From NCBI RefSeq assembly GCF_000011005.1, contig NC_013665.1:186001-250000 (forward strand): a DNA stretch of 64,000 nucleotides, written 5' to 3'. A program made the position numbers and the translations under genes. Below the pieces are notes generated by a model. The model ran no database searches and was not told where the DNA came from. It was given only the letters and a program-made list of their open reading frames with translations. Source of the stretch: Methanocella paludicola SANAE (GTDB lineage Archaea > Halobacteriota > Methanocellia > Methanocellales > Methanocellaceae). Each line of letters starts with the position of its first letter. Position 1 is the stretch's first letter. Shown in pieces: positions 39,450-58,185 of this stretch.

Positions 39450-40418
39450 ATGGGATACGGTTCATCGAGTAGCACGGGTGCTATCACGAGCTTGCTGAGC
39501 CTTGAAAAGCCGGAGATGAGGGATAAGCCCTTGAAAGTGGCGGTCATCATACCCACGATGAACGAGCCCGCCATCAGCAAAGTGGTAGACGATGCCAGGC
39601 AGGCGCTCAGGCACTTCGACACGGAGGTCATCGTCGTGGATAAGTCCCTGGACGATACCCCGAGGAAGGCAAAAAAGGCCGGCGCAATCGTCGTCACCCA
39701 GAAGGAATCGGGCTACGGTAACGCCTACATGGTAGGCTTCAGCTCCGTGGGGCCCGATGTCGACGTCGTCGTCATGATGGACGGCGACAACACGTACGAC
39801 GCGTACGAGATACCCATGCTCATCGACCCCATCGTGAACGGCCCCACGGACGTGTGCCTGGGCAACCGGTTCGCCCGGATGGAGCCGGGCGCCATGAACG
39901 CCCGCAACCGCTTCGGCAACCGGATGATCACCGGGGTCATCAACGGCCTTTATGGCCTAAAGCTGAAGGACTCCCAGACCGGGTTCCGGGCTCTACGGAA
40001 GAGCGCGCTCGACACCCTGGACCTGGACGAGGACGGCATGCCCTTCGCCAGCGAGATGATCATCGACGCCCGCAAGAAGTCCATGCGCATCGCTGAGGTG
40101 CCCATATCGTACCGCCAGCGCATCGGCGAGGCGAAGCTCAAGGCCTACAAGGACGGCTCGCTCATTTTAAGCCTCATCATCCGCATGGTGAGGGACTATA
40201 ACCCGTTCGCCATTTTTCTCACCATCGGCTCGCTATTCATACTCGGGTCCCTGCTGTCGGGCGGCTACGTCGTATACGAGTGGCTCATGAACGGGGTCAT
40301 TACCCACCTCGCGCTCACGATCCTGTCCGCCATGCTGTTCATGGGCGGCATCCAGGTGATATCCTTCGGGCTGCTGGCAGACATCATAACCAGCGCGCTT
40401 CGTGCGGCGAAGCGCTAG
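39450..40418 (+). CDS. Dolichol-phosphate-mannose synthase-like GT2 with two C-terminal helices
   Basis: A 322-residue membrane-associated family 2 glycosyltransferase, of the type that charges a polyprenyl phosphate with a sugar for N-glycosylation or surface polymers. The GT-A domain includes VAVIIPTMNE, the DXD motif in VMMDGDNTYDAYE, and NGLYGLKLKDSQTGFRAL with acceptor-site residues. Two C-terminal helices (about 252-275 and 285-310) anchor it. It is followed at seven bases by a GT4 gene and then another GT2, suggesting a short glycan-assembly unit just before the peptide cluster. A TATA-like ACTTTAATATAAAA lies about 30 bp upstream. Confidence 0.88.
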   Translation: MGYGSSSSTGAITSLLSLEKPEMRDKPLKVAVIIPTMNEPAISKVVDDARQALRHFDTEVIVVDKSLDDTPRKAKKAGAIVVTQKESGYGNAYMVGFSSVGPDVDVVVMMDGDNTYDAYEIPMLIDPIVNGPTDVCLGNRFARMEPGAMNARNRFGNRMITGVINGLYGLKLKDSQTGFRALRKSALDTLDLDEDGMPFASEMIIDARKKSMRIAEVPISYRQRIGEAKLKAYKDGSLILSLIIRMVRDYNPFAIFLTIGSLFILGSLLSGGYVVYEWLMNGVITHLALTILSAMLFMGGIQVISFGLLADIITSALRAAKR

Positions 40419-40424
40419 ATACGC

Positions 40425-41552
40425 ATGAAGATCGCTTTTGTCTCCGACGTGATCTATCCCTATATCAAGGGCGGTGCCGAGAAGCGCTTTTACGAGTTCG
40501 CCCTCCGCCTCTCGAAGGCGCATGAGGTGCACATCTACGGCATTAAATGGTGGGACGGCCCCCCGGTGCTCGTCAAGGACGGCATCACATACCACGGGGT
40601 CTGCAGGCCCAGGACGCTTTACTCTGCAGAGGGCCGCCGTTCCATCGTGGAGGCGCTGGCGTTCGGGCTGGCCCTCATGTGGCCCCTCCTGAAAGAAAAA
40701 TTCGACATCATCGACTGCAACCAGCACCCCTACTTCTCCATCTTTACCTGTAAGCTGGCCACAATGCTCAGGGGAGGCAGATTTTACGTCACCTGGCACG
40801 AGGCCTGGGGCGACTACTGGTACGAGTACATGGGCTGGATCGGGTTTTTCGGGAAGCTCATCGAGAAGGTCACGGCGCGGCTTGCGGGGCGCATCATCGC
40901 CGTCTCCGAAGGCACGGCCGCAGGCTTAGAGCGCCTGGGCGTTAAAAAGGAGCGCATCATCATCCTGCCTAACGGCATTTCCACCGCCGCCATCGGGGGC
41001 GCCCCTACGGGAGGCGAGGGGGCCGACGTCATGTTCGCGGGGAGGCTCATCCGGGACAAGCACGTGGACGTCCTGCTCAGGGCGTGTGCCGAAGCGTCCC
41101 GAAAAATGCCGCTAAGCGTGCTCATCATCGGCGACGGGCCGGAGAAGGGGTCGCTGGAGGCGCTGGCGGCCGGGCTGCCGCTGAAAGTGAAGTTCGCGGG
41201 CGCAGTGGACGAAATGGCCCTGTACTCTTCCCTCAAGTCGTCCCGCGTGTTCGTCCTCCCCTCCACCCGGGAGGGGTTCAGCATCACCACGCTGGAGGCG
41301 CTGGCCTGCGGCGTGCCCGTAATAACCGTATCCGGCGAAAAAAACTCTGCCAGGGAGCTCGTCGTGGACGGCGTTACCGGGCGAGTGGTGGGCCTGGGGG
41401 AAAAGGAGCTGAGCGATGCAGTCCTTGACGTCCTCGGGGACGAGGCCCGGCGAAAGCGGATGGCCGCCGAGTGCGCCCCTGCAGCTCGCAAATACGACTG
41501 GGACGGGCTTAGCGAGCTGCTGCTCGAGTGCTACGCAAAACAGACAAATTAA
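40425..41552 (+). CDS. Family 4 (GT-B) glycosyltransferase
   Basis: A 375-residue retaining glycosyltransferase of the GT4 type. The N-terminal Rossmann half begins KIAFVSDVIYPYIKGGAEKR. The nucleotide-sugar half has VMFAGRLIRDKHVDVLLRA and the EX7E-type segment PSTREGFSITTLEALACGVPVI with both glutamates. The donor and acceptor cannot be predicted. No membrane helices are present. ATG 40425 lies seven bases after the preceding GT2 gene, and the following GT2 begins 40 bp after its stop, so the three are likely one operon. Confidence 0.9.
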   Translation: MKIAFVSDVIYPYIKGGAEKRFYEFALRLSKAHEVHIYGIKWWDGPPVLVKDGITYHGVCRPRTLYSAEGRRSIVEALAFGLALMWPLLKEKFDIIDCNQHPYFSIFTCKLATMLRGGRFYVTWHEAWGDYWYEYMGWIGFFGKLIEKVTARLAGRIIAVSEGTAAGLERLGVKKERIIILPNGISTAAIGGAPTGGEGADVMFAGRLIRDKHVDVLLRACAEASRKMPLSVLIIGDGPEKGSLEALAAGLPLKVKFAGAVDEMALYSSLKSSRVFVLPSTREGFSITTLEALACGVPVITVSGEKNSARELVVDGVTGRVVGLGEKELSDAVLDVLGDEARRKRMAAECAPAARKYDWDGLSELLLECYAKQTN

Positions 41553-41592
41553 TATACTTCTTTTTGGAATTGTAGTTGCCAGAGGTGCCCAG

Positions 41593-42285
41593 TTGATCAG
41601 CGTCATCGTCCCCGCCTACAACGAGGAAAAGCGCATAGAGCAGACCCTCCGGGACTATAGCGAGGGCCTGAAGGCCTCGGGCAGGGACTTCGAGCTGCTC
41701 ATCGTCTGCGACGGGAACGACCGGACCGCAGAGCTGGCGAAGCCCTACGGGAAGGTGCTCGAGTTCGGCCACCGCCTGGGAAAGGGCGGCGGCGTGCTGG
41801 AGGGCTTCAAGGCCGCCCGCGGCGAGGTCGTGGGCTTCACCGACGCCGATAACTCGCTCAAGGTCGACCAGTTCTTGCGCCTGCTTGATGAAATGGACCG
41901 CACCGGCGCGGGATGCGTAATCGCAGACCGCAAGTCCAAAGAGTCCATGATCATGGAGAGCCAGTATCTTTTCCGCAGGTTCGCCAGCGAGGTCTTTAAC
42001 TTCATGCTGTCCCGGGCCATTTTCGGGCTTCGCATCCGCGACTCGCAGTGCGGCGGCAAGGTCTTTAAAAGGGAGTACATCGACCGGGTGGCGCCCTCCA
42101 TGGCCTGCAAGGGCTTCGAGTTCGACGTGGAGCTTCTGTGGAGGCTGAAGAACGCCGGATGCGACATCAAAGAGGTCCCCGTGGTCTGGAAGGACGACAA
42201 GGCGAGCACTTTTAGCTTCAAGTACGTGCCCTCGATGTTCTTTAATTTGATGAAGGTAAGGCTCGGGCTTTATAAAAAGGCTTGA
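41593..42285 (+). CDS. Family 2 glycosyltransferase, TTG start
   Basis: A 230-residue GT2 enzyme. It begins ISVIVPAYNEEKRIEQTLRDY, has a DXD-like motif in VVGFTDADNSLK and a GLRIRDSQCGGKVFKRE acceptor segment, in which the shortened helix set resembles DPM-like enzymes without membrane anchor. The frame is open upstream into the preceding gene. The best start is TTG 41593, because AGAGGTG (41581-41587) sits at correct spacing and the chain then opens directly with the first beta strand. It ends 100 bp before the peptide cluster's presumed first message. Confidence 0.85.
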   Translation: MISVIVPAYNEEKRIEQTLRDYSEGLKASGRDFELLIVCDGNDRTAELAKPYGKVLEFGHRLGKGGGVLEGFKAARGEVVGFTDADNSLKVDQFLRLLDEMDRTGAGCVIADRKSKESMIMESQYLFRRFASEVFNFMLSRAIFGLRIRDSQCGGKVFKREYIDRVAPSMACKGFEFDVELLWRLKNAGCDIKEVPVVWKDDKASTFSFKYVPSMFFNLMKVRLGLYKKA

Positions 42286-42423
42286 ACAGGCTACAATAAG
42301 TTTAATTACGATGTAAGTCCACCGTCATACGGTTGAGGTTGAGCGGTGGGAAATTTTTGAACATTTCGTGCATAGCGAAATTGTAAAAGGCTACATGGGG
42401 AGGTATCGTTATAGTATTCGTAA

Positions 42424-43256
42424 ATGGTGAAAAGGCCTCGAAGCTGATCGTCCAGCTAGCTCCGACGGGAATGGTTCCGACGCGCAAGGACTCACCCTAT
42501 GTTCCCCTCACCCCTGAAGAGATCGCCGAAGATACTTACAGGGCCTATAAGCTGGGCGTTTCTTCGGTCCACGTCCACGCCAGGGACGAGGCCGGTAACC
42601 CGACCTATAAGAAAGAGGTTTACGGCGAGATATTCTCGGCAATACGGAGGAAGTGCCCGGATATCATCATCTGCGCGTCCACCAGCGGGAGGTCAGACCG
42701 TAGCCTGGAGCACAGGGCCGAAGTCCTGGAGCTGAGGCCGGATATGGCGTCCCTGATGATGGGCACGGTGAACTTCATAAAGAACCCAAGCCCGAACTCC
42801 CAGGAGGACATCGTCGCCCTGGCGAAGAGGATGGAAGAGCATGGCGTGAAGCCGGAGCTGGAGGCTTTTGAACCGGGTTTCGTTAACGTGGCGAAGTACC
42901 TGGCATCAAAGGGCCACCTGCGCCCGCCATTACACTTTAACCTTTTACTGGGCTCGCTGGGCAGCATGCCCGCTGAGGCCCGGGACCTCGTCTTTCTCGC
43001 CGGGTCGGTGCCGCCGGGCAGCACCTGGGCGGCTACTGGCATAGGCAGGTTCCAGCTCCAGGTGAACGTGGCGTCGATGCTCATGGGAGGCCACGTCAGG
43101 GTAGGCCTGGAGGACTCGCTTTATTATTCTTATCCTGAAAAGTCGCTGGCCACGAACGAGCAGCTCGTGGAGCGGGTAGCCCGCATCGCCCGTGAGCTGG
43201 GCAGGGAGATCGCCACTCCGGCGGAGGCCAGGGCGATCCTGGGCCTTGATCATTGA
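42424..43256 (+). CDS. Beta-keto acid cleavage enzyme (BKACE, DUF849), start disturbed by one base
   Basis: BKACE enzymes use a beta-keto acid and acetyl-CoA to give acetoacetate and a new acyl-CoA. The zinc-binding VHVHARD, GTVNF and GLEDSLYY (metal-ligand Glu) motifs are visible. The first ATG in frame (42471) gives 261 residues but discards the conserved segment KLIVQLAPTG. The frame is open back to 42387 without any ATG, GTG or TTG. ATG 42424 (MVK) joins the conserved frame only if the A-run at 42430-42433 had one more base; a -1 slip there would do the same. A GGGGAGGT lies at 42397-42404. It precedes the acyl-ligase gene and may supply acyl groups (inference). Confidence 0.75.
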
Positions 43257-43272
43257 TACTGGGGTGAAAACG

Positions 43273-45030
43273 ATGGCAGAGCTAACGTGTATCCATGAAC
43301 TTCTCCATGGCGGTCAGGATGGGAGGTCACACGCAATCGAGGCCCCCGGCAGGGCTCCTATTACTTACGATCAGCTGCGCATGCACATCTCCGGCATCGC
43401 CGGGGCGCTGTACGGCATGGGATACCGCCGGAACGACCGTATCGCCGTCGTGCTCCCTAACGGCCCCGACATGGCCATCGCCTTTCTCTCCGTGGCCTCG
43501 GGGTTCACCTGCGCTCCGCTCAACCCTCTCTATAGCCGGCCCGAGCTCGAGTTTTATCTTTCTAGCCTGGGGGCTAAGGCGCTAATAACGAATGGGGAGC
43601 CGTCGCCAGCCGAGGAGGCAGCCCGCGGCATGAACATACCCGTCATAAGCCTGAAGTCGCTGTACGAGGCGAAGCCCTTGGGCGCCTCTCAGGAATTTTC
43701 AGAGCCCGAAGATACCGCGCTGGTCCTGCACACGTCAGGCACGACGTCGAAGCCCAAGCGAGTGCCGCTCACGCAGGCCAACATATGCGCCTCCGCCTGT
43801 AACATCGCCGACTCGCTTCGCCTGGGCCCGGGAGACCGGTGCCTGAACGTAATGCCGCTCTTCCACATCCATGGCCTCATAGGGGCGCTCCTTTCCTCGG
43901 TCGCCGCCGGGGCTACGACAGTATGCGCGCAGGGATTCGTCGCCCCGGAGTTCATGGGGTGGCTGCGCGACCTCAAGCCCACCTGGTATACGGCCGTGCC
44001 GACCATCCACCAGAAGGTGCTGGAAATGGCAAAGAGCGACCCGGGCAAATATGACAGTTTACGATTCATACGTTCCGCGTCATCGGCGCTGCCCGTCCCC
44101 ATCATGCGTAGCCTGGAGGAGCGCTTCGGCGTCCCCGTGATAGAGGCGTACGGCATGACCGAGGCGTCCCACCAGATCGCAGTCAATCCGCTGCCACCGC
44201 TCTCACGTAAGCCCGGGAGCGTGGGGCTGCCGTGGGGCACGGAGGCGGCGATACTAGACGGGGCCGGTAACATGCTTACCGCCGGCGAGGCCGGAGAAGT
44301 CGCAATTCGCGGCCCGGGCGTGACCGCCGGGTACGAGAACAACCCTGATGCTAACGCCGCAGCGTTCCACGACGGATGGCTCAGGACCGGCGATAATGGT
44401 TATATTGATGCGAACGGCTACTTGCATCTCCTGGGGCGCCTGAAGGAGATCATCAACCGCGGGGGCGAGAAGGTCTCGCCTTTCGAGGTCGAGGAAGCCC
44501 TGCTTGCTCATCCCGCCGTAAAAGAGGCGGCCGTGTTCCCCGTCCCCGGCGGCCCCCTAGGCGAAGAGGTCGGTGCAGCGGTCGTTTCTAGCGATGGCGT
44601 CACCGCCGAAGCGCTCAAGGAATTCCTGATCCCCCGCATGGCATACTTCAAGGTGCCCTCCCGCATTGTCATCGTCGAGTCCCTACCGAAAGGCCCTACG
44701 GGCAAGGTCCAGAGGATCGGCATGGCCAGAAGGCTCGGGGTGTCGGTAGAGCGCGTGGCGGATCAGGCGCCGGTGAAGACCGCCCCGATGACCCGGACCG
44801 AGGCCGAGCTGGCAAGGATATGGTCCGAAGTGCTTCGCCGGGGAGACATCGGGGCGCTCGACAACTTCCTGGAGCTTGGCGGGGACTCGCTGCTCGCGAC
44901 CCAGGTAATGTCCCGCATACGCAGGTCATTCGACGTCGACGTTCCCATCGTGCGCATCATCGAGTCCGAGAACCTGTCCGGGCTGGGCCGTACGATCGAC
45001 AGGCTAAAAGGTGAGCGTCCCAATGGATGA
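43273..45030 (+). CDS. Acyl-adenylating enzyme fused to a carrier (PCP/ACP) domain; loading module
   Basis: Activates a carboxylic acid as adenylate and loads it onto its own phosphopantetheine arm. Of 585 residues, about 1-505 form an acyl-CoA-ligase-type ANL domain (LVLHTSGTTSKPKRVPLTQ, AYGMTEASHQ, GWLRTGDNGYID, PTGKVQR). About 510-580 is a carrier domain with LGGDSLL, Ser539 being the attachment site. The adenylation domain is closer to fatty-acid or oxalyl-CoA ligases than to amino-acid-activating domains, so an acyl starter is expected (inference). GGGGTGA lies five bases before ATG 43273. The stop overlaps the synthetase ATG by eight bases. Confidence 0.88.
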   Translation: MAELTCIHELLHGGQDGRSHAIEAPGRAPITYDQLRMHISGIAGALYGMGYRRNDRIAVVLPNGPDMAIAFLSVASGFTCAPLNPLYSRPELEFYLSSLGAKALITNGEPSPAEEAARGMNIPVISLKSLYEAKPLGASQEFSEPEDTALVLHTSGTTSKPKRVPLTQANICASACNIADSLRLGPGDRCLNVMPLFHIHGLIGALLSSVAAGATTVCAQGFVAPEFMGWLRDLKPTWYTAVPTIHQKVLEMAKSDPGKYDSLRFIRSASSALPVPIMRSLEERFGVPVIEAYGMTEASHQIAVNPLPPLSRKPGSVGLPWGTEAAILDGAGNMLTAGEAGEVAIRGPGVTAGYENNPDANAAAFHDGWLRTGDNGYIDANGYLHLLGRLKEIINRGGEKVSPFEVEEALLAHPAVKEAAVFPVPGGPLGEEVGAAVVSSDGVTAEALKEFLIPRMAYFKVPSRIVIVESLPKGPTGKVQRIGMARRLGVSVERVADQAPVKTAPMTRTEAELARIWSEVLRRGDIGALDNFLELGGDSLLATQVMSRIRRSFDVDVPIVRIIESENLSGLGRTIDRLKGERPNG

Positions 45031-48000
45031 GCGCCAGCGCATCAAGCCCCGGGTAAAAGACGGGCCCATACTGGCATCGTTCGCCCAGCAGAGGATGTGG
45101 TTCCTCGAGCAGATGGACCCGGACAACGCCATTTATAATCAGCTTAACGCCCTGCTTATCCGTGGCCAGCCAGACATCGGGGTCCTGGGACGGTGCCTCG
45201 ACGAGGTGATGCGCAGGCATGAGGCATTGCGGACCAACCTTATTATCGAAAATGGCCAGGTATTACAGCATATTTCCCCGCCAAAGGCTCTGGACCTGCA
45301 TATAGTCGACCTTTCGGGATTATCACCTGTAGAGGCGATGGCGGAGGCGGAGCGCCTGGCGGTCGTCGAGGCGAAGAGGCCGTTTGACCTGGGTAATGAG
45401 CCGCTGATCCGGGCGCGGCTGTTTAAGCTATCCGATGGGGAACACTTACTTACGTTCGTCACCCACCACGCAATCTTCGACGGCTGGTCGGTCAATATCT
45501 TCATGAGCGAGCTCGCGGTCCTGTACGGGGCCGTCAGGGAGAGCCGCCCGCTCCCGCCGGAGCCCGCGCTCCAGTACGCCGACTATGCGGTTTGGCAGCG
45601 GGAGAGGTATGACCGCGGGGACTTTGATGAGCAGCTTCGATACTGGCAGGATAAGCTCGGCGGAGACCTGCCATTCCTTGAGCTGCCTGCCGACCGTCCT
45701 TGCCCCCCGGCGCAGAGCTTCGACGGGGCGGTCTATACATGCGATATCCCGGGTGACGTCGCCGACGCCCTAAAGGCGCTCGCGAGGAGCGAGAGGGCGA
45801 CCCTGTTCATGGTGCTGCTCGCGGCCTATAACGTCCTACTTTACAGGCACACCGGCCAGAATGACATCGTCGTCGGATGCCCCATCGCTGGCCGCCACTA
45901 CCTGGAAATAGAGGATAACATCGGGCTTTTTGTCAATACCCTGCCCATGCGTAACCGGCTTTCCGGGGACATGCCGTTCATCGAGCTTGCCAGGAGCGTA
46001 CGCAAGACGGCATTAGAGGCTTATAGCAATCAGGACATTCCTTTCGATAAGCTGGTGGAAACGCTGCCCCTGGACAGGCAGCCTTCGCGCCCGCCCGTGT
46101 TCCAGACGCTCTTCCAGATGAGGAACTTTCCGGGCAGGGATATCATGGTCTCGGATATTTTCTTCGAGCGCCACTTCTTCAATTACTCGACGGCAAAAGT
46201 CGATCTCACCTTCGAGGTCACCGAGACGAAGGCCGGGCTGTCCTGCCGGTTAGTATATCCTGTCGCCATCTTCGATGAGCGGACCATCGCCCTGCTGGCG
46301 GACCACTGGCTGGTGCTGCTACGGAGCATCGTACAAGACCCCGGCCAGCCCATCGGCAGGCTAGCCATGCTGACCCCCGGGGAAAGGCGCTTGATCGTTC
46401 ATGAATGGAACGATACAAAGGCCGATTATCCCGTGAAGGCCGTAAGCCGCATCTTCGAGGAACGTGCGAGGGCTTCCCCGGATACTGTGGCGGTCGCACA
46501 CGATAATGAGCGCTTAACGTATGAGGAGCTCAACGCCCGCGCCAACAGGCTGGCCCGGCACATGGACATTAGCCCGGGGGCAACCGTAGTCATATACATG
46601 GAACGCTCGATCGAGATGGTCATCTGCGAGCTGGCCGTGCTCAAGGCGGGCGGCGTCTATGTGCCCGTGGACCCGTCAGACCCCCGGCCCAGGACGGAGC
46701 TCATGCTCAAGGACAGCCATGCCGGCCTCATACTGGTAAAAACGCCGCCCTCCGGGCTTCAATTGCCGGACGAATGCAGGATGATATGCCTTGAGGCGGA
46801 GCGCGAGGCCATCGGACTCCTTCAAGATGGGAACCTGGCGGTAAGCCCGTCCGTAAAAAGCACAGCATACATCATGTACACATCGGGCTCTACCGGGCAG
46901 CCCAAAGGCGTTCGGGTGCCCCACCGGGGCATCTGCAGGCTGGTCATCAATACGAACTACGTACATATGAGCCCCGGCGACACCGTGGCTCATATTTCGA
47001 ACCCCGCATTCGACGCGTCGACGTTTGAGGTGTGGGGCGCATTATTGAACGGGGCCCGGCTGGCGATCTTCGACAGGGATACGGTGCTGACGCCGGACAT
47101 GTTTGCCGCCCACATCGCTGAAGAGCACGTCGATACGCTCTTCGTGACCGCGCAGCTCTTTAACCTTTACTCCCGGGAGGCGCCGGGAGCCTTCAAGAGC
47201 GTCAGGGACCTCCTCGTAGGCGGCGATGTCGTCGAGCCCACTCCCGTGAAACGAGTCCTGGAACATGGCCGGCCCCGGCGGCTGCTCAACGCCTACGGCC
47301 CCACCGAGAACACGACCTTCAGCACCTGGTACCTTATCCGCGAGCCGGTCGAGAACAGCATACCCATCGGAAGGCCGATATCCAATACCACTGCATACGT
47401 GCTGGACGAGTATCTTGAGCCCGTGCCCGTCGGCGTGACCGGGGAAATATACCTGGGCGGCGATGGCGTATCCCAAGGCTACCACGGGCGGCCGGACCTG
47501 AACGCGTCGGCTTTTGTGCCCGACCCGTTCTGCAGCGGCTCAATGCTGTACAGGACCGGGGACCTGGGGCGTTACCTCCCCGATGGCAACATCCGATTCC
47601 TCGGGAGGCGCGACAGCCAGGTAAAGATACGCGGGTTCAGGGTAGAGGCGGGGGAGGTAAATGCCCTTCTAGGGGCACACCCTTCAGTGAAGGCCTCACT
47701 GATCGCTGTTAATGAGGTAAGGGGCGAGAGGCAGCTCGTTGCATATGTTGTGCCCTTGGATGGCCGGGGCATCGAAGAGGGCGATCTAAGGGAACACATG
47801 CGGGCGAAGCTCCCGGAATATATGATACCTGTGGCGTTCATTCCTATCGAAACAATTCCCCTTACCCCTACGGGTAAGGTGGACTACCTGGCGCTGCCAG
47901 TGCCTGGCGACCTGTCTCATGGCAATGGCGGGGAGCTGAGGGACGAGCTCGAATACGAGCTGGCGGAGATATGGGAAGATGTGCTGGGCATCGATAATGC

Positions 48001-49030
48001 AGGCACGGACGACAATTTCTTTGGCCTTGGCGGTCATTCACTTAAAGCCATAACCCTTTGTGCGAGGATCGGCGAGAAGCTTCACGTAAAGCTCCCTGTA
48101 AACACCATATTCCTGGCCCCGACCATCGGCCGTATGGCCCGGGCTATACGGGAATTAAAGACCTTCAACCCCCCTTTATTGATCAAGAATGGTCCCGTAA
48201 GGCCGCCGCTGTTCTGTATTATCGCCATCGGGGGCACGCTCGCCGAGTACGCGCCCATGGCAGCAGAATTTGAGAAAGGCCGGCAGGTATATGCGCTTCA
48301 GATGCCCTGGCATGACGAGGGGCTGGTCCCGGGGAGCATCGAGGAGCTTGCGAGGAGGCTGATCGAGGATGTGAAGGCCGTCCAGCCTCATGGGCCCTAT
48401 AACCTTCTGGGATATTGCGCCGGAGGCGCCGTCGCCTACGAGATGGCCGCCAGGCTCAGGTCCGCCGGTGAGGAGATAGGCTTCCTGGGGCTCATCGACC
48501 TGGTACCGCCGGGTTACCACTACCGTCTCGATAGCCGGTCACTGAAAATTCTGGCCGGCAGATTCCCTATCGTCCTCTCTAATATCGCCCTCGCTCCCCC
48601 CGGCCAGCGGCTGGCCAGAATATGGGGCATACCGGCCATGGCAGGGCAATTCCTTAGTAACCTGGCGCACCGGGAGCCGGGCGACGGCTCCAGGGCTGCT
48701 CGCTCATATCCGGAGTGGCTCATGGCCATGCCAGGGCCATATCATGAAACTACGCTGGCCGCATTTGAGATATATAAAAAATATGTCTTCAGGCCATACG
48801 CGGGGGACGTCGTGTTATTTTTCTCCCGTAAAACGGCGGACAATTTTAAAGACGCCCTCTATGCTGGCCCGGCATTGGGATGGGAAAAATACGTGGACGG
48901 CGCGTTAAAGGTCCACGTAGTACCGGGCGACCACGAGACGATGACCCGGCCGCCATCGGCTAAGGAGCTGGCCCGTGCGGTCGAAGAATACCTGGCCACA
49001 GACAAAAGTCCCGGAGGAGGCGCGACTTGA
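45023..49030 (+). CDS. Nonribosomal peptide synthetase, C-A-PCP-TE
   Basis: A single-module synthetase of 1335 residues. The condensation domain (about 10-430) has ILASFAQQRMWFLEQ and an intact HHxxxDG at 148-154 (HHAIFDG). The adenylation domain (about 440-960) has YTSGSTGQPKG (Thr620 on), NAYGPTEN, YRTGDLGRY and catalytic Lys952. Its ten-residue specificity code by position to PheA reads DAFFLGATFK, close to Ile/Val/Leu codes. The carrier domain has LGGHSLK with Ser1006. The thioesterase (about 1065-1330) has GYCAGG, so Cys1132 replaces the usual Ser, with Asp1159 and His1304 as the likely partners. ATG 45023 follows AGGTGA; GTG 45011 is in frame. Product prediction: acyl-aliphatic amino acid (inference). 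Confidence 0.95.
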   Translation: MDERQRIKPRVKDGPILASFAQQRMWFLEQMDPDNAIYNQLNALLIRGQPDIGVLGRCLDEVMRRHEALRTNLIIENGQVLQHISPPKALDLHIVDLSGLSPVEAMAEAERLAVVEAKRPFDLGNEPLIRARLFKLSDGEHLLTFVTHHAIFDGWSVNIFMSELAVLYGAVRESRPLPPEPALQYADYAVWQRERYDRGDFDEQLRYWQDKLGGDLPFLELPADRPCPPAQSFDGAVYTCDIPGDVADALKALARSERATLFMVLLAAYNVLLYRHTGQNDIVVGCPIAGRHYLEIEDNIGLFVNTLPMRNRLSGDMPFIELARSVRKTALEAYSNQDIPFDKLVETLPLDRQPSRPPVFQTLFQMRNFPGRDIMVSDIFFERHFFNYSTAKVDLTFEVTETKAGLSCRLVYPVAIFDERTIALLADHWLVLLRSIVQDPGQPIGRLAMLTPGERRLIVHEWNDTKADYPVKAVSRIFEERARASPDTVAVAHDNERLTYEELNARANRLARHMDISPGATVVIYMERSIEMVICELAVLKAGGVYVPVDPSDPRPRTELMLKDSHAGLILVKTPPSGLQLPDECRMICLEAEREAIGLLQDGNLAVSPSVKSTAYIMYTSGSTGQPKGVRVPHRGICRLVINTNYVHMSPGDTVAHISNPAFDASTFEVWGALLNGARLAIFDRDTVLTPDMFAAHIAEEHVDTLFVTAQLFNLYSREAPGAFKSVRDLLVGGDVVEPTPVKRVLEHGRPRRLLNAYGPTENTTFSTWYLIREPVENSIPIGRPISNTTAYVLDEYLEPVPVGVTGEIYLGGDGVSQGYHGRPDLNASAFVPDPFCSGSMLYRTGDLGRYLPDGNIRFLGRRDSQVKIRGFRVEAGEVNALLGAHPSVKASLIAVNEVRGERQLVAYVVPLDGRGIEEGDLREHMRAKLPEYMIPVAFIPIETIPLTPTGKVDYLALPVPGDLSHGNGGELRDELEYELAEIWEDVLGIDNAGTDDNFFGLGGHSLKAITLCARIGEKLHVKLPVNTIFLAPTIGRMARAIRELKTFNPPLLIKNGPVRPPLFCIIAIGGTLAEYAPMAAEFEKGRQVYALQMPWHDEGLVPGSIEELARRLIEDVKAVQPHGPYNLLGYCAGGAVAYEMAARLRSAGEEIGFLGLIDLVPPGYHYRLDSRSLKILAGRFPIVLSNIALAPPGQRLARIWGIPAMAGQFLSNLAHREPGDGSRAARSYPEWLMAMPGPYHETTLAAFEIYKKYVFRPYAGDVVLFFSRKTADNFKDALYAGPALGWEKYVDGALKVHVVPGDHETMTRPPSAKELARAVEEYLATDKSPGGGAT

Positions 49031-49671
49031 CGCTGGAAATGCCCGGCCCCGGGGAGGTCCATGTCCGGGTCGTGTCCCTTGAACATTCCACAGGCGAACT
49101 CCCAATGGAATGCCTCGACGAGGGCGAGATGGATACTTTCCGCCGATTCCGCAGAGAGACGGATGCCGGGCGATATTTAGCCGCCCATGAGGCGCTCAGG
49201 CATATCCTGGCATCGTATCTTGGCATCGAGCCGGACGCTATAAGGTATGTCCGGGGGCCCCATGGTAAGCCCTATCTGGAGCCGGCCATCCATGGCGGAC
49301 GCTTGAGGTTTAACCTTTCCCATTCGGGAGGGATTGCGGCGATAGCTGTTACCGATGGCCTCGACGTGGGCGTCGACGTGGAACAGGTCCGCGACATGGA
49401 GTTCGAGGAGCTCGCATCCTGCGCTTTCTCGCGGGATGAGCAGGCTGCACTGGGTAATAATAACATCGATTCTGGAGTATTTTTCAGGCTATGGACCCGG
49501 AAAGAAGCTTATTTGAAGGCAACTGGCCTGGGGCTGAGCGTGCAACCGAACGAGGCTACCATAGGCGAAGGCTGGTCGATCATCGATATCGACCCGGCGC
49601 CCGGCTATGCCGGTGCGGTAGCCGTCGAGGGTCCCATAGCCCGGGTATCCGTCTTTCGGCCACCTGAATAA
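49027..49671 (+). CDS. Sfp-type 4'-phosphopantetheinyl transferase
   Basis: Installs the phosphopantetheine arm on the carrier domains of the two preceding proteins. The 214-residue protein has the pseudo-dimer Sfp features: RFNLSHSGGIAAIAV, GVDVEQVRD (Mg-binding Asp/Glu) and FFRLWTRKEAYLKATG (the WxxKEA motif). Most archaea lack carrier-protein pathways, so the enzyme is there for this cluster. The start is TTG 49027, overlapping the synthetase stop (TTGA), with GGAGGAGG just upstream; ATG 49039 is an alternative. The tight overlap shows the gene belongs to the cluster. Confidence 0.92.
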   Translation: MTLEMPGPGEVHVRVVSLEHSTGELPMECLDEGEMDTFRRFRRETDAGRYLAAHEALRHILASYLGIEPDAIRYVRGPHGKPYLEPAIHGGRLRFNLSHSGGIAAIAVTDGLDVGVDVEQVRDMEFEELASCAFSRDEQAALGNNNIDSGVFFRLWTRKEAYLKATGLGLSVQPNEATIGEGWSIIDIDPAPGYAGAVAVEGPIARVSVFRPPE

Positions 49672-49679
49672 GCTTATTT

Positions 49680-50831
49680 ATGATGTCATCGTTAGGTCAG
49701 GTTGTGGACGCGAGCAGGACCGACATCGTATGCTTTTCTGATATCTTCTGGGATTTCGTCTGGCAGAGGCACCAGAGCCTGCTGACGCGCTTCCCTGAAG
49801 GCTGGAACATACTCTTCGTCGAGCCCACGTCGCTAGTGGTCCTGCTCAAGGAGCCCCGCCGGCTCCTCGCCCGGAAACACGGCAACATTACCGTCATTTC
49901 TTCGCCGGCGCTGCCGTTGACCGATAAGGTCTCGATCCTGCGGCCCGTGAACGATATTTTCATATGGTGCTGGCTCAAGGCGATGTTCCTTAAACATAAT
50001 ATCACGCGCCCGGTGCTGCTGTACTATGCCCCGAGGTTCTCGTCGCTCATCGGGCGGCTCGGGGAAAGGCTGGCCACCTACGACTGCGCGGACGACAGGA
50101 TGGCATTCTCTCGTGAACCTCACTGGATGGGGCCGTACGTGGAAAACTTGTTTAAAAAGTCGGGCATCGTGTTCGTCACCTCGGAGAGCCTCAGGAAAAA
50201 AGCTCTTGGGTACAGGAGCGATAATGTTCATCTCATTGGCAACGGCGTGGATGCCGGCCTGTTCGAAAAAGCCTGGGGTGATGTGCCCGTGCCTGACGAC
50301 ATCAAGTGGCTAAAAAAGCCGATCATAGGGTATTTTGGGGTCATCGACGAGTGGATGGACATCGACCTCATCGTAAGGATGGCCTCGGCATATCCTGAAG
50401 CTTCTATAGTCCTGGTCGGCCCGGCGCTCATTGGCCCGGAGGGGCTGCAAAAATTAAAGAGCCTCCCGAACGTCTATTTACCCGGCCAGAAGCCCCACGA
50501 TGCGCTGCCCGGGTACCTGAAGGCGTTCGATGTCTGTATCATCCCCTTCAGGATTAACGAGCTCACGAAGAGCGTCAATCCAGTCAAGCTATACGAGTAC
50601 CTTGCGGGCGGCAAGAACGTCGTAACTATTACTATGGCCGAGGTGGAGAAGTACGATGGGACCATATACATCGCACGCGACCACGATGATTTCATAAGGA
50701 AGACGGCGGATGCGCTCCGGAATAAGCCGGACGCCGACAGGATGAAAGCTGTGGTTAGCGAGAACACCTGGGATAGTAAGGCAAAGGCCATGGTCGAAAT
50801 AATCCAGAGGTCGATCGATACGCATGGATGA
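49680..50831 (+). CDS. GT-B glycosyltransferase (TuaH-like)
   Basis: A 383-residue glycosyltransferase family 1/4-like protein. It opens with DIVCFSDIFWDFVWQRHQSLL, whose WQRHQ tract is typical of a GT clade with a diverged N-terminal half. The donor half includes GYFGVIDEWMDIDLIVRMA, IVLVGPALIGPEGL, LPGYLKAFDVCIIPF and NPVKLYEYLAGGKNVV. No membrane helix is evident. It begins nine bases after the phosphopantetheinyl transferase stop and overlaps the next glycosyltransferase by eight bases (ATGGATGA), the same junction seen between the ligase and the synthetase. It could decorate the peptide product or belong to the surface-glycan locus. Confidence 0.85.
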   Translation: MMSSLGQVVDASRTDIVCFSDIFWDFVWQRHQSLLTRFPEGWNILFVEPTSLVVLLKEPRRLLARKHGNITVISSPALPLTDKVSILRPVNDIFIWCWLKAMFLKHNITRPVLLYYAPRFSSLIGRLGERLATYDCADDRMAFSREPHWMGPYVENLFKKSGIVFVTSESLRKKALGYRSDNVHLIGNGVDAGLFEKAWGDVPVPDDIKWLKKPIIGYFGVIDEWMDIDLIVRMASAYPEASIVLVGPALIGPEGLQKLKSLPNVYLPGQKPHDALPGYLKAFDVCIIPFRINELTKSVNPVKLYEYLAGGKNVVTITMAEVEKYDGTIYIARDHDDFIRKTADALRNKPDADRMKAVVSENTWDSKAKAMVEIIQRSIDTHG

Positions 50832-52221
50832 GCGGCTGAGTATGGGAGAAGATATGCCACAGGATCAGGATAGTGAGCAGGACATCGAATACCTCAGGGA
50901 CAGGGTACGCGCCCTCGAGCTGCAAATAAAAGATAAGGACCGGCAGATCGAAGACCTGAAGGAGACCGTGAGGCAGAGGGAGAGCTCGGTGGGCTGGAGG
51001 CTGAGCCAGTTTTATGGACGTTTCTTTAGTATGGGCTCACCTCTCACGAAACTGCTTAGCCGTACCTTTAACCGCGTTTCGCCTTCCGGCGAGCCGGCCC
51101 CGAAAAACGTCGAGGCCTATAGAGCAGCGCTCAATGAGATATTGAAGGAGCGCGAGGGAAAGATCAAGGGCATCATTGTATATCCGCCCACCGTGGACTG
51201 GAACATACCCCTGTTTCAGCGTCCTCAGCAACTGGCACTGGAGCTATCAAAGAGCGGGTACCTGTTCTTCTTCTCGACCGGGAAGAACCTGTACGACCGG
51301 GTCGACGGCTTCCGCAAGATCAACGATAACTGCTACGTCACGAATCAATACGATCTTGTCATAAAGGAGCTGCCGAAGTTCATCCTTCTCCTGTCCTCCA
51401 CGAACCTTGGCGTCCTGCTGGAGGACGTGGCCAGAATGAAGGGCAAGGCCACGGTCGTCTACGACTACATCGACGAGATACACCGAGACATATCAAAGGA
51501 AAATGTCGACCACGCATTCAAGCGCCACGAGTACATGAAGAGGCATGCGGACGTCTTCATTGCCACTGCCGATAATCTCTATAATGAAGCTTTAAAGGAC
51601 AGGCCTAAGGATACGTACCTTATTCCCAACGGCGTTGACTACGATCACTTCCACGTCCAGCGGAACCCGGCTAACGTTCCCCTGGACCTGGCCCCAATCC
51701 TGGAAAAGAAGAAGCCTGTTATCGGCTATTATGGCGCGCTGGCCAGCTGGTTCGACTACGAGCTCATCAAGAAGGCGGCTGAAACTCGTACGGACCTCGA
51801 GTTCGTGCTCATCGGATGGGACTATGACGGGAGCCTGTATAAGCAGGGGCTGGATCAGTATAGAAATATCCATTACCTGGGCATCAAGGATTATTCGATC
51901 CTGCCCCAGTATGCCGTGTGGTTCGACGTGGCGACCATACCGTTCGTCCTGAACAAGATCACCGAGTCGACATCGCCCATCAAGGTGTTCGAGTACATGG
52001 CGCTGGGAACGCCCATCGTGACCACGAACCTCCGGGAGTGCCGGAAGTATAGGTCGGTGCTGATCGGTAAGGACCAGGGGGACTTCCTGAGGCAACTTGA
52101 TGAGGCCCTGCGTCTGAGGGATGACACCGGCTATAAGGCTTTGCTCGATAAGGAAGCTAAGGAGAATACGTGGGATAAGAGGGCCGCTGAGATCGTAGAG
52201 CGCATAACGGGAAAACATTAA
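50824..52221 (+). CDS. Glycosyltransferase with N-terminal coiled coil
   Basis: A 465-residue protein. Residues about 18-56 form a charged coiled coil (DIEYLRDRVRALELQIKDK and following), then SSVGWRLSQFYGRF, a WRL motif often found before glycosyltransferase domains. The rest (about 115-465) is a GT-B enzyme: VYPPTVDWNIPLFQRPQQLA at the front, VIGYYGALASWFDYELIKKA, IPFVLNKITESTSPIKVFEY and GTPIVTTNLRECR in the donor half. It parallels the preceding gene, so the two may add successive sugars. ATG 50824 overlaps the previous stop. A similar coiled coil/WRL pair occurs in the large protein at 59323-62166. Confidence 0.85.
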   Translation: MDERLSMGEDMPQDQDSEQDIEYLRDRVRALELQIKDKDRQIEDLKETVRQRESSVGWRLSQFYGRFFSMGSPLTKLLSRTFNRVSPSGEPAPKNVEAYRAALNEILKEREGKIKGIIVYPPTVDWNIPLFQRPQQLALELSKSGYLFFFSTGKNLYDRVDGFRKINDNCYVTNQYDLVIKELPKFILLLSSTNLGVLLEDVARMKGKATVVYDYIDEIHRDISKENVDHAFKRHEYMKRHADVFIATADNLYNEALKDRPKDTYLIPNGVDYDHFHVQRNPANVPLDLAPILEKKKPVIGYYGALASWFDYELIKKAAETRTDLEFVLIGWDYDGSLYKQGLDQYRNIHYLGIKDYSILPQYAVWFDVATIPFVLNKITESTSPIKVFEYMALGTPIVTTNLRECRKYRSVLIGKDQGDFLRQLDEALRLRDDTGYKALLDKEAKENTWDKRAAEIVERITGKH

Positions 52222-52246: not shown

Positions 52247-53097
52247 TCAAATCCTTGCAGTTAGCGGTGGAGAGCAATGCGTTATATGTTCATCGGTCCA
52301 GACTATACCATATTCTTTGTATGATTGGTTGTATTTTTTGATATCTTTAAAGCCGGCTTTTCGGAGTTCATCCCATAACGACGACTCCGAGAACGATCTC
52401 ATTTCGAGCGTGTTGCCCTTCCCTCCGTGAAATGTTAAATTCGTATAAGTCTGACTGACCCCTTCCGCAGTTATATTTTTTAAAATTTTCCCCTGTCTCA
52501 TATTAATTATCTTATACTGATACAAATCCGGAAAATGCTCGACGGTACCGTGGCCTGGCGTAGAAATATACGGGACTGAAAATATCAGCACTCCGCCCCT
52601 TTTTAATAATTTTCCAGTGTTGTAGAAAGCCGTTGATACGGGAGGAACTACGTGCTCGAATACATCCGAGGAAATGATAAAGTCATATTTGCCATTCTGT
52701 ATATCATCTACCGATATGATGTCCAGTTTTGGCTCTTTATGGTAAAATGTGTTCGTATATCCTAATTTTTTTGCCAGGCGCGACGTATACACGTCCCAGT
52801 CGCTCATGCCTATGCCTGTAATGTCCTTTCGGACCGGGAATTCAGAGAGCGGTATGCTCTCGCCAAATAGTTCCATGGATAATAGATGTACGATCGACCC
52901 CATTCGGACCGATGAGCCGCACTTTTTGCAGGTTGGATTTTCTCTGGTCAGGTCCGCTAACTTTGATCTGTAGGCCGCCCCGCATATGTTGCACTGGAAG
53001 GATAGCTGGGTCTCATCGTTCTCCTTGACCAGAACAGGCTGTGTCCGTTTAAATGAGGATGAATATTTATTAAAAAATCAGAGTTAAATATCTTCAT
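52247..53097 (-). CDS. SAM-dependent methyltransferase with zinc-binding N-terminus, frameshifted at a T-run
   Basis: The core has FIISSDVFEHVVPPV, LLKRGGVLIFSVPYIST and HGGKGNTLEMRSFS. The first ATG in its frame is at 52903, but that frame stays open upstream and encodes a clear zinc knuckle domain (QCNICGAAYRSK and TCKKCGSSVRMGS) with no start codon back to a stop near 53080. ATG 53097 (MKIFNSDF) reads naturally into this domain if the six-base run at 53072-53077 (A on the plus strand) had one more base. The repaired protein would be 283 residues. It may be a real mutation, a sequencing error or programmed slippage. It probably methylates a sugar or lipid-linked glycan. It is convergent with the preceding glycosyltransferase. 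Confidence 0.72.
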
Positions 53098-53169
53098 CTT
53101 ATTCGCCACTTTGCTAATAAACGATTAATTATTTCATAAATCTGTTGTACAAATAAATCAACAGGTTAC

Positions 53170-54123
53170 TCAATATTCCCACTCGATATTACTCAAAGGC
53201 AGGGAGCGATTATACGATTTGCGATTTGCTATCCTGGAGAGGTCCCTTCTTCTCGCCTTGAGCGTGCCGATCAAATGGAAACCATTCCAGAAAAGCGCTT
53301 TCATGCGAACGATAAAATCATCGAAACCCTGCCCATGGATTCCATTTATCATCATTTTGTAAGTTTCTTTAGTAAATTCAACAACAAAAACAGGAAGATA
53401 CGACGAATCAAAATTTTTTAAGGCGAACCTGACGCGGTTTCTCATGATATAAGAAAGCTTTGCGCCTGACCCTATAGAGCCGGAAACAACGTGCCAGGCC
53501 TTCGCATCGGGGACGTAGACGAGCCTATATCCTGCCATAATCGCCCTAGCACACCAGTCCGTCTCCTCGAAGTAAAGGAAATAGTCTTCGTCCAGCAGGC
53601 CGACTTCATCCAGGGCTTTTTTCTTTATCAGCATGGCACACCCCGGCAGATAATCGACGTCTGCAGCCGGCCTCTCGTCAAAAAAATTATATGCCAGCGC
53701 TTTACGAGGATCGACCTTGGGCCAGGTGCAAAACACCTTTTTCCTTTCCTGCTCATCCCCCCAATAAAAAATCTTACCGGCAACCGCTGCGATATCATTA
53801 GACGAATTTACGGCCTTCACTAATATTTCCAGCCAGTTCTTATCCGCGACCGCATCCTGATTAAATAGGGCTATGAGCTCGCCCTTCGCCTCTTTTATGC
53901 CCCGGTTAGTTCCGCCGGCGAAGCCGAGGTTGCTGCTGCTCTCGATAACTTTTACCATGGGATAGTTCTTCCTTATAAAATCGGGGGAACCGTCAGTAGA
54001 GGCATTATCGACGAGGATGATCTCCCGGTTAGCGTAGCTCTGGGCGAAAAGAGAATCGAGGCACTCCCTTAGGTACTTGAGGCCGTTCCAGTTGACGATG
54101 ACCACCGATACGAGAGAGCCCAT
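53170..54123 (-). CDS. Family 2 glycosyltransferase (rhamnosyltransferase-like)
   Basis: A 317-residue GT2 enzyme. SVVIVNWNGLKYLRECLDSL and VDNASTDGSPDFI begin the GT-A domain. The NRGIKEAKGELIALFNQDA stretch carries the metal site, where NQD replaces the more common DDD/DXD. The later EETDWCARA motif matches the E(T/D)DW acceptor block of bacterial rhamnosyltransferases in O-antigen loci. A basic C-terminal tail follows. ATG 54123 is the start. It lies upstream of the frameshifted methyltransferase on the same strand and divergent from a DPM-like gene. Confidence 0.88.
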   Translation of the reverse strand: MGSLVSVVIVNWNGLKYLRECLDSLFAQSYANREIILVDNASTDGSPDFIRKNYPMVKVIESSSNLGFAGGTNRGIKEAKGELIALFNQDAVADKNWLEILVKAVNSSNDIAAVAGKIFYWGDEQERKKVFCTWPKVDPRKALAYNFFDERPAADVDYLPGCAMLIKKKALDEVGLLDEDYFLYFEETDWCARAIMAGYRLVYVPDAKAWHVVSGSIGSGAKLSYIMRNRVRFALKNFDSSYLPVFVVEFTKETYKMMINGIHGQGFDDFIVRMKALFWNGFHLIGTLKARRRDLSRIANRKSYNRSLPLSNIEWEY

Positions 54124-54269
54124 CGAGTAACTATCATAAATGTCATACCATATAGCTTATTTGTCTATTGATATGGCCTACACTTTTTCTGTTTGGAGCC
54201 TCGGGGGCATTGAACATAGTATATAAATAGTAAGTTGATAGATGGAATGGTATTGCCTTAGGTGGAAAT

Positions 54270-55175
54270 ATGAAAACGACTCTGGTGGTCCCCGCATATA
54301 ATGAAGAAGAAGCGTTGCCAAAAACGTTTGAAGAGTACATGGAATATGTTGATGAGATCATCATCGTTAATGATGGCTCGCAGGACAATACCGATGGAAT
54401 AGCGCGGGACTATGCTTCAAAGAATGACAAAATTAAGTACATAAAGCATGATACCAATCGGGGCAAACCGGAGGCGCTGAAGACGGGTGTGGAACATTCC
54501 ACTGGCGATATTCTCATTTTCACCGACGCTGACTGCACTTACCCTGCACGGTATATTCCAGAGTTCGTAAAAAGGATTAATATGGGCGCGGATATGGTAC
54601 TGGGCGCCAGGGTGTTTAATACAACTAACATCCCCCGGTTCAACCGAATCGGAAATATAATATTCTCTTTACTAATCACCTACTTCTGCTATACGAGGAT
54701 TATGGATGCACAAACCGGGTACAGGGCAATGCGTACATCTATATTCCCGGAACTCGATGTGACGGCGAAAAATCTGGAATATGAAACGAAGATGACAATG
54801 CGAGCCGCGAAACTAGGGTACAGCGTAGTCGAAGTGCCGATCGAATATAGGAAAAGGGTGGGGAAGTCCAAGCTTAACCCATTCAGGGATGGGTTCCGCA
54901 TGCTCAATTCAATACCCTCTACGATTTGGCAAGAAAGTACGTTCATACTAAAAAGCGTCATCTTGATCAATATCTTGTTATTTTGTCTGGGCTTGTTATT
55001 CGGCCTTTATTCCATATATGAAAAGCTCGCCGTAGGGGTATTGTCGCATGAGTATTACCCCCTCCTGGCTGTCGTACTCATATTGACGGCCATGCAATTG
55101 ATGAGCTTTAGCCTAATCATGGAATTCATCGTGAATAAGCTCAATAAGATTGAGGATTTAGTAAAAAAGTATTGA
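54270..55175 (+). CDS. Polyprenyl-phosphate sugar synthase-like GT2 with C-terminal membrane helices
   Basis: A 301-residue enzyme like dolichol-phosphate mannosyltransferases. It starts KTTLVVPAYNEEEALPKTFE, has DVNDGSQDN-type VNDGSQDNTDGIA, and the DXD segment ILIFTDADCTYPARYIPEF. The TRIMDAQTGYRAM block resembles the acceptor region of the GT2 at 39450-40418. Two helices (about 230-252 and 262-285) anchor the C-terminus. AGGTGG lies just before ATG 54270. It is the only plus-strand gene in this stretch of the surface locus. Confidence 0.88.
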   Translation: MKTTLVVPAYNEEEALPKTFEEYMEYVDEIIIVNDGSQDNTDGIARDYASKNDKIKYIKHDTNRGKPEALKTGVEHSTGDILIFTDADCTYPARYIPEFVKRINMGADMVLGARVFNTTNIPRFNRIGNIIFSLLITYFCYTRIMDAQTGYRAMRTSIFPELDVTAKNLEYETKMTMRAAKLGYSVVEVPIEYRKRVGKSKLNPFRDGFRMLNSIPSTIWQESTFILKSVILINILLFCLGLLFGLYSIYEKLAVGVLSHEYYPLLAVVLILTAMQLMSFSLIMEFIVNKLNKIEDLVKKY

Positions 55176-55180
55176 CGGGT

Positions 55181-58139: not shown

Positions 58140-58185
58140 GCTCCGGTGTGTATTATTTTTAATTAAATACCCATTGACTTTATAT

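Follow-up and report, generated by a model that had tools for sequence, protein, structure and literature searches.

A compact nonribosomal gene cluster in the methanogen Methanocella paludicola and its predicted acyl-amino-acid product

Nonribosomal assembly lines are rare in archaea, and to our knowledge essentially none of their products is known. The methane-producing rice-paddy soil archaeon Methanocella paludicola SANAE encodes such an assembly line, and a term search of its genome paper gave no mention of the cluster. Which compound might so compact a locus produce, and from which building blocks? The window analysed here comprises 64,000 nucleotides (positions 186,001 to 250,000 of contig NC_013665.1). 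Its gene content and motifs point, with reasonable but far from complete confidence, to a two-carrier assembly line that would make a small N-acyl-isoleucine (or -valine).

Gene order and cluster boundaries

An earlier note had described six adjacent genes joined by overlapping or near-touching junctions, and the Pfam searches bear this out: all six are present on the plus strand with the claimed domain families (Table 1), and all junctions are overlaps or gaps of at most 16 bp. Specifically, 16 bp separate the gene of the BKACE-family enzyme from the ligase ATG at 43273, the ligase and synthetase (NRPS) genes overlap by 8-20 bp, and the NRPS and phosphopantetheinyl transferase (PPTase) genes either overlap by 4 bp, with a TTG start, or lie 8 bp apart, with an ATG start. 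The first downstream glycosyltransferase (GT) gene follows after a gap of 8 bp and overlaps the second by 8 bp. The BKACE start at 42387 needs correction: this is the base directly after a stop codon, the conserved first strand has no upstream ATG, GTG or TTG, and the first in-frame ATG, at 42471, already lies inside the conserved fold. The actual start may be non-canonical.

Table 1 Features of the cluster and its flank, in window positions
Feature	Position	Strand	Evidence
GT2-GT4-GT2 triad (flanking context, outside the assembly line)	39450..42285	+	Orthologues in other Methanocellales
BKACE-family (DUF849) TIM-barrel enzyme	42387..43256	+	Pfam PF05853 3e-94
Acyl ligase-PCP, oxalyl-CoA-synthetase (AAE3/Pcs60) type, predicted starter loading	43273..45030	+	Pfam AMP-binding, AMP-binding_C, PP-binding
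NRPS, C-A-PCP-TE	45011..49030 (likely start ATG 45023)	+	Pfam Condensation 8e-109, AMP-binding, PP-binding, Thioesterase 1e-24
Sfp-type 4'-phosphopantetheinyl transferase	49027..49671	+	Pfam ACPS 2e-14
GT-B glycosyltransferase (TuaH-like)	49680..50831	+	Pfam Glycos_transf_1 2e-5 (just below cut-off); NCBIfam TuaH 3e-25
GT-B glycosyltransferase (TuaH-like), charged N-terminal extension	50824..52221	+	Pfam Glyco_trans_1_4 3e-8 (above cut-off)

The whole genome of 2,957,635 bp (PMC3146512) contains one Condensation domain, one ACPS-family gene and one BKACE above the cut-off, so that common genes brought together by chance do not account for the cluster. The single ACPS-family gene is the Sfp-type PPTase of the operon, in agreement with the proposal that the cluster carries its own carrier-activating enzyme. 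Judged from the sequence, the first four genes (BKACE, ligase-PCP, NRPS and PPTase) are a real unit.

Related clusters and the glycan neighbourhood

The linkage of these four genes recurs in a second Methanocellales genome (locus L031) and in a genome of another class (L051), where the BKACE is a deleted relic and, having decayed, is dispensable. The expected conservation of the neighbourhood in Methanocellales is therefore found in one of the three other genomes examined and fails in two, and it extends to a different class. Strain MRE50 lacks the cluster. The synthetases of M. paludicola, L031 and L051 form one clade (support 100/100) that stands apart from other methanogen NRPSs, among bacterial modules, and a search of genome contigs returned ordinary bacterial NRPS relatives only, at 31-39% identity. 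As the earlier note had held, NRPSs are a rarity in these archaea; the limited distribution that it ascribed to them needs qualifying, since several further families of methanogens in the same phylum have them too. Recent import of the cluster is not supported because its G+C content agrees with that of the left flank, although its codon fit is below that of the flanking genes.

The two downstream GTs, previously counted as cluster members, fared less well. Although operonic, they are not conserved with the cluster: they are 31% identical to each other, are absent from the other Methanocellales (the gene at 50824..52221 has no match in any of the other three) and are not conserved beside the L031 and L051 synthetases; any glycosylation of the cluster product is hypothetical. 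Glycan genes of some kind adjoin the cluster in all three genomes, which could point to a role in surface-glycan decoration, with the acyl-amino-acid (or acyl) group moved onto an amino sugar of an S-layer or exported glycan built by the flanking GTs. This arrangement is unlikely. It would fit the adjoining triad and the ABC-2 exporter further downstream in M. paludicola, the gene for the oligosaccharyltransferase AglB that follows the L031 cluster after 63 bp, the GT2 and GT4 beside the L051 cluster, and locus L113, which holds another part of a G002 gene orthologous to the M. paludicola GT4 and carries homologues of the M. paludicola exporter. However, the triad is also conserved in L111 and L112, neither of which has an NRPS (L031 has orthologues of its GT2-GT4 part), the neighbouring GTs differ between loci, and the TE predicts release rather than attachment to a sugar. 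Insertion hot spots are, furthermore, common among glycan loci, and the composition shifts sharply near 52 kb. The nearby IleRS gene (30860-34177) was also considered as a resistance gene and rejected, because this housekeeping gene is the only copy and each Methanocellales genome has one orthologue of it.

Predicted building blocks and chemistry

The NRPS contains the expected core motifs (HHAIFDG, TSGSTGQPKG, NAYGPTENT, PLTPTGKVD and LGGHSL), as does the PPTase (GVDVE and WTRKEA). Homologues of known structure exist for the A domain, the ligase and the BKACE. The ten-residue A-domain code of L031 and L051, DAFFLGVTFK, is identical to that of the cyanopeptolin modules OciB-A5 and OciC-A7, which take mainly isoleucine and sometimes valine (PMC2533009), and the M. 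paludicola code, DAFFLGATFK, departs from this reference at one position, 322, which is Ala. With this one reservation, the code predicts isoleucine or valine as the substrate of the A domain. As its nucleophile, the TE has a cysteine (GYCAGG) in a Cys-Asp-His triad that is invariant in four homologues. This cysteine is common to all three NRPS TEs and the TE of locus L006.

The nature of the acyl group is indicated by the ligase, whose best PDB relatives are 5IE0, 6QJZ and 8AFF (E = 3e-120 to 2e-104; 2e-77 for a truncated copy), with the next distinct PDB family following only at 2e-63. In the tree, it falls into a clade (100/98) with the plant and yeast oxalyl-CoA synthetases, and its pocket motif, PLFHIHGL / FIRSAS / TEASH, fits the family pattern PLFHxHGL / F[IL]RSxS / TEAxH, whose pocket residues we take to act in oxalate binding. 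Outside the plant and yeast enzymes and M. paludicola, a 38-row table contains this combination in just three ligases, L031 ligase 1 and two from proteobacteria. By phylogeny and pocket motif, the ligase is a member of the oxalyl-CoA-synthetase (AAE3/Pcs60) family, and because it retains the family's pocket motif, a very small acid is the probable starter. An aliphatic amino acid bearing a short acyl group, as predicted earlier, accords with both the ligase type and the Ile/Val code. The starter may vary among related clusters, since pocket residues are altered in L031 ligase 2 and in the ligase of L051 despite unchanged A-domain codes. Family kinship and a similar pocket do not prove oxalate use, as the characterised enzymes of the clade are those of plants and yeast.

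The M. paludicola BKACE is 67% identical to the enzyme at the equivalent place in L031, matches ObcA (4NNA) at 1.5e-7, and retains the Zn ligands HVH...E and the catalytic-base Glu (as defined in PMC11961710). At the position of the catalytic Tyr (Tyr145 of CcaKce), it carries Phe (PELEAF), as do L031, four of the five plasmid-borne relatives examined and 3NO5. ObcA, which is BKACE-like, and Obc1 convert oxaloacetate and acetyl-CoA to oxalate and acetoacetate (PMC5028181; PMC12871164). A BKACE in L123, 66% identical to that of M. paludicola, has a 4-bp overlap with an Antibiotic_NAT-type N-acyltransferase gene, and this BKACE subfamily thus adjoins N-acylation elsewhere too. One point against supply of the starter by this enzyme is that a canonical BKACE leaves the shortened acid esterified to CoA, so that hydrolysis is needed before use by the ligase; the acid set free is acetoacetate.

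From domain content and motifs, the PPTase would convert both PCPs to the holo form, upon which the ligase would adenylate a very small carboxylic acid and load it onto its own PCP, while the A domain would place isoleucine on the second PCP. Subsequently, the C domain would form the amide and the cysteine TE would release the product. By analogy to ObcA/Obc1, the BKACE-like enzyme might make the starter from a beta-keto acid, such as oxaloacetate, and acetyl-CoA. Among very small oxo- or dicarboxylic acids, oxalate would be the most probable starter, an assignment that is itself tentative. Release by hydrolysis would then give N-oxalyl-isoleucine (C8H13NO5, [M-H]- 202.0721; 188.0564 for the N-oxalyl-valine counterpart), with cyclisation as the other route. 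The complete scenario of an archaeal oxalyl-NRPS is rather doubtful. In it, central metabolism would provide an oxalyl or 2-oxo-acyl unit through the BKACE-like enzyme, the ligase would load it onto the carrier, a single module would yield N-oxalyl-isoleucine or a cyclised derivative, and the genes would have been transferred between two methanogen classes. If true, the starter chemistry would be new to nonribosomal synthesis and the metabolite new to methanogens.

Could the same enzymes instead build a tetramic acid? Here the ligase would load acetoacetate from the BKACE, or another beta-keto acid, for joining to isoleucine and Dieckmann closure by the Cys-TE. Both this pathway and its product, a tenuazonic-acid-like 3-acyl tetramate ([M-H]- 196.0979 for acetoacetyl-Ile, against 214.1085 for linear N-acetoacetyl-Ile), are improbable, as the ligase is of the oxalyl type and the BKACE is only a relic in L051; acetoacetate-CoA ligases stand nearer to acetyl-CoA synthetases. 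The A domain does read as isoleucine, and tenuazonic acid synthetase reportedly couples acetoacetyl and isoleucine, while pyreudione synthetase is said to form a tetramate with a single C-A-T-TE module. The shared TE cysteine would also suit such closure, but relatives carry Cys or Ser, and AB3403 (4ZXH), among the closest PDB matches, likewise has a Cys-TE; the residue is not diagnostic and was rejected as proof of beta-lactone or tetramate chemistry. BKACEs do release acetoacetate as the free acid (PMC12871164, PMC11961710).

Likewise improbable is a BsfD-like C-acylation, in which the BKACE homologue would acetylate a beta-keto acid (for instance oxaloacetate, which with loss of CO2 would become acetopyruvate), whereupon the ligase would activate the 2,4-dioxo acid. 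An oxalyl-type pocket could take a 2-oxo acid, and BsfD, which acetylates instead of cleaving, has the same Tyr-to-Phe change (PMC12871164). However, most relatives examined carry this Phe, which was thus rejected as proof of BsfD chemistry, and the insertion of about 20 residues after strand 3 of BsfD (with Arg91) is absent from the M. paludicola BKACE. A fatty-acyl starter is rejected in view of the phylogeny and pocket of the ligase, and a role in synthesis of coenzyme B (N-acyl-threonine phosphate) is rejected because the cluster is patchy, though all methanogens need the coenzyme, and its A-domain code differs from the Thr code DFWNIGMVHK (PMC2533009).

Significance and comparison with known systems

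The cluster is unusually simple: it has two carrier domains and a PPTase of its own, and is predicted to use a single amino acid and a single small acid. Its product could therefore be found by in vitro reconstitution of three or four proteins, and the host is a cultured, completely sequenced rice-field methanogen. This would show whether methanogens produce small acyl-amino acids as signals, in competition or to modify their surface, and whether the fold of the oxalyl-CoA synthetases was recruited as a loading module.

As predicted for M. paludicola, the pyreudione and tenuazonic-acid synthetases use a single C-A-T module to join one amino acid to an acyl group, which in their case is a beta-keto acyl; we know of no oxalyl-type loading ligase or BKACE in those systems. 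The cyanopeptolin synthetase, in contrast to this single module, is a large multimodular bacterial assembly line. The Methanobrevibacter ruminantium NRPSs (mru0068 and mru0351; PMC2812497) share a methanogen host, an inferred bacterial origin and a PPTase in the genome, but they are two- and four-modular, lie beside MatE exporters and are described without an oxalyl-type ligase or BKACE, both of which are present here, a distinction drawn from their description. ObcA/Obc1 and the BKACE (Kce) family, which perform acetyl-CoA-dependent chemistry on beta-keto acids, share the TIM barrel, Zn ligands and base Glu with the M. paludicola enzyme, which differs in having Phe in place of Tyr145/322 and in its location in an NRPS operon. 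In turn, the plant and yeast oxalyl-CoA synthetases share their clade and pocket motif with the M. paludicola ligase, and the oxalyl groups that LsAAE3 supplies are joined to an amino acid in the amide beta-L-ODAP (PMC9935904). These enzymes end at CoA; in M. paludicola, the ligase has a carrier domain fused to it, and a condensation module comes next.

Conservation and ancestry of the cluster

The window occupies positions 186001-250000 of a single 2,957,635-bp contig. The six genes joined into one cluster by the earlier note (BKACE, ligase-PCP, NRPS, PPTase and two glycosyltransferases) are indeed real, lie on one strand and are tightly packed. As a conserved unit, the first four stand; the two TuaH-like glycosyltransferases downstream, which share 31% identity, do not, with no counterpart in the other Methanocellales examined or beside the synthetase of L051, a locus from another class (probably Methanomicrobiales). 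In L031, from a second Methanocellales genome, identity to the window proteins is 46% (NRPS), 53% and 52% (two ligase copies), 67% (BKACE) and 41% (PPTase), and in L051 it is 42% (NRPS), 50% (ligase) and 33% (PPTase). A BKACE relic in L051 (residues 19-68 and about 233-267 kept, the middle gone) lies immediately 5' of the ligase, indicating that BKACE belonged to the ancestral cluster and is no chance neighbour. The cluster is absent from the remaining two Methanocellales genomes examined.

Positions and gene orders of the features compared
Locus	Position	Features
Window	39450-42285	GT2-GT4-GT2 triad
Window	42387-42471	5' stretch of BKACE
Window	52247-63744	AT-rich surface-glycan island
Window	62197-63744	ABC-2 glycan exporter
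L031 (G002:C11)		PPTase - BKACE - ligase-PCP - ligase-PCP - (C-A-PCP-TE) - AglB - PQQ-type beta-propeller - GT2 - GT4
L051 (G067:C18)		ligase-PCP - (C-A-PCP-TE) - PPTase - GT2 - GT4
L123 (G171:C11)	2885-12294	BKACE-acyltransferase pair, divergent from adjoining lasso-peptide cluster
L072, Streptomyces camelliae plasmid	735-8688	BKACE near rosB and riboflavin genes
L098	3132-8766	two ligase-PCP-TE proteins in tandem
L006	908-3604	ligase-PCP-TE protein
L096	5483-8386	ligase-PCP-TE protein
L096	11045-16800	stand-alone oxalyl-CoA-synthetase-type ligase

Within the window genome, the cluster holds the only Condensation domain (in its NRPS), the sole ACPS-family gene (its Sfp-type PPTase) and the only BKACE above the family cut-off. 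A survey of Sfp-type enzymes in archaea lists the M. paludicola PPTase (PMC4103896), and the terms nonribosomal, peptide synthetase, secondary metabolite and phosphopantetheinyl are absent from the genome paper. Full-length Condensation domains (E < 1e-50) occurred in five of 394 genomes sampled from the phylum (the window genome G000, G002, G067, G242 and G119), and strong matches in 232 genomes from the order of G067 and 238 from the class of G119 added a few more. Across the genome sets searched, only the window, L031 and L051 clusters combine an NRPS of this type with an oxalyl-type ligase-PCP.

In a maximum-likelihood tree of 39 distinct synthetase sequences, whose relatives were picked by similarity so that the exact bacterial donor is not indicated, those of the three clusters form one clade (100/100) amid bacterial modules, and all other methanogen sequences fall into a separate supported group. 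Contrary to taxonomy, L031 and L051 are sisters within the clade (100/99), which suggests transfer among methanogen lineages or differential loss. The cluster has the G+C content of its left flank, and its codon fit is intermediate between that flank and the glycan island starting near 52 kb; judging from sequence, its acquisition is not very recent. Other methanogens (L052, L053, L057-L059 and L081) carry multi-module NRPSs in a clade of their own; the L052 and L053 enzymes resemble terminal reductases at their C-termini and are encoded beside apparent MFS and MATE exporter genes.

Ligase, synthetase and the proposed product

The window ligase is neither an NRPS A domain nor a fatty-acyl ligase. 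The solved structures closest to it belong to oxalyl-CoA synthetases of plants and yeast (3e-120, 2e-118 and 2e-104), with other families starting only at 2e-63, and in the tree it shares one clade (100/98) with those three enzymes. Its pocket motifs PLFHIHGL, FIRSASSAL and TEASHQ, whose residues we take to be oxalate-binding in oxalyl-type ligases, correspond to PLFHVHGL, FIRSCSSAL and TEASHQ in yeast Pcs60. In a 38-row table, the full combination recurs elsewhere only in AAE3, LsOCS, L031 ligase 1 and two proteobacterial ligases. The pockets of L031 ligase 2 (PLYYVGGL, LIRTSAAAM) and the L051 ligase (PLFHIQAL, TEAPH) deviate, and the starter may therefore differ there. Plant LsAAE3 provides the oxalyl groups of beta-L-ODAP, where they form an amide with an amino acid (PMC9935904); this is a precedent for the chemistry, not for the cluster. 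Related archaeal ligase-PCP-TE proteins (L098, L006 and L096) belong to this ligase family as single-module enzymes and lack a condensation domain. In L096, a methanogen locus, an Iso_dh (isopropylmalate/isocitrate dehydrogenase) gene lies close to the stand-alone ligase, as do two genes resembling isopropylmalate isomerase subunits.

The window A domain has the specificity code DAFFLGATFK; L031 and L051 read DAFFLGVTFK, the code of cyanopeptolin modules taking mainly Ile and sometimes Val (PMC2533009). The window C domain carries HHAIFDG, and both PCPs have the carrier serine. The Cys-Asp-His triad of the TE is intact and unchanged across four archaeal homologues; several bacterial relatives likewise have Cys as the nucleophile, and others have Ser. 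The domain is compatible with hydrolysis or cyclisation.

We consider it reasonably likely that the product is a small N-acyl-isoleucine. Specifically, the PPTase would activate two carriers, the ligase would load a very small acid and the A domain Ile, the C domain would join the two and the TE would release the product. Oxalate as the starter is a more tentative proposal, its probability already included in that of the general scheme. We infer which acid is loaded, what BKACE contributes, how the product is released and what biological use it has. The rival readings are not all mutually exclusive with this scheme: glycan decoration departs from it in the product's fate, tetramate formation and C-acylation in starter and release step.

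The role of BKACE

The window BKACE retains the Zn ligands and base Glu; its identity to plasmid-borne relatives does not exceed 48%. It carries Phe in place of a Tyr considered catalytic, as does BsfD, which C-acetylates instead of cleaving (PMC12871164). Since most plasmid-borne relatives examined (four of five) and 3NO5 share this Phe, we do not rely on it as an argument. From oxaloacetate and acetyl-CoA, Obc1 and ObcA, the latter a structural relative, form oxalate, acetoacetate and CoA (PMC5028181; ObcA, PMC12871164), which makes a role from oxaloacetate to oxalyl plausible by analogy.

No in-frame ATG, GTG or TTG lies 5' of the conserved first strand KLIVQLAPTG, and the L031 orthologue likewise lacks such a start; the L051 relic and the BKACE of L123, from another methanogen, have ATG. 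Compared with L031, this 5' stretch shows five synonymous codon changes and a single non-synonymous one and is therefore coding; GGAGGT lies 6 bases ahead of an ATA codon.

The L123 BKACE, 66% identical to that of the window, overlaps by 4 bp with an AAC(3)/Antibiotic_NAT-like acyltransferase gene. The arrangement suggests that BKACEs of this subfamily provide acyl groups to N-acylating steps in biosynthetic clusters of at least two types. The adjoining cluster encodes a lasso cyclase (NF033535, 754 bits; cut-off 525), a PqqD-like protein, an HPr-kinase-like protein, NTP_transf_5 and an ABC exporter, and its product is possibly an acylated archaeal lasso peptide. The L072 BKACE, 48% identical to that of the window, is flanked by GTP cyclohydrolase II and methyltransferase genes.

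Glycan surroundings and comparison with known systems

The triad immediately upstream is kept in two other Methanocellales loci (L111 and L112), both without an NRPS, and the cluster lies on one side of it in the window and on the opposite side in L031, with AglB between. Downstream, G+C changes sharply from 60% to 39-49% in the island, which contains GT2s, methyltransferases, an acyltransferase and the exporter. Homologues of the exporter occur in L113, a G002 contig ending in a partial gene that matches the window GT4. Given triad, exporter and unconserved glycosyltransferases, the cluster could serve a surface glycan or merely sit in a variable glycan island; functional coupling to the glycan genes seems unlikely.

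By every testable feature the cluster is an NRPS and so does not represent a new type of system. BKACE, an oxalyl-type ligase-PCP and a single Ile-type module are common to three genomes from two methanogen classes, and this combination is, to our knowledge, an undescribed variant.
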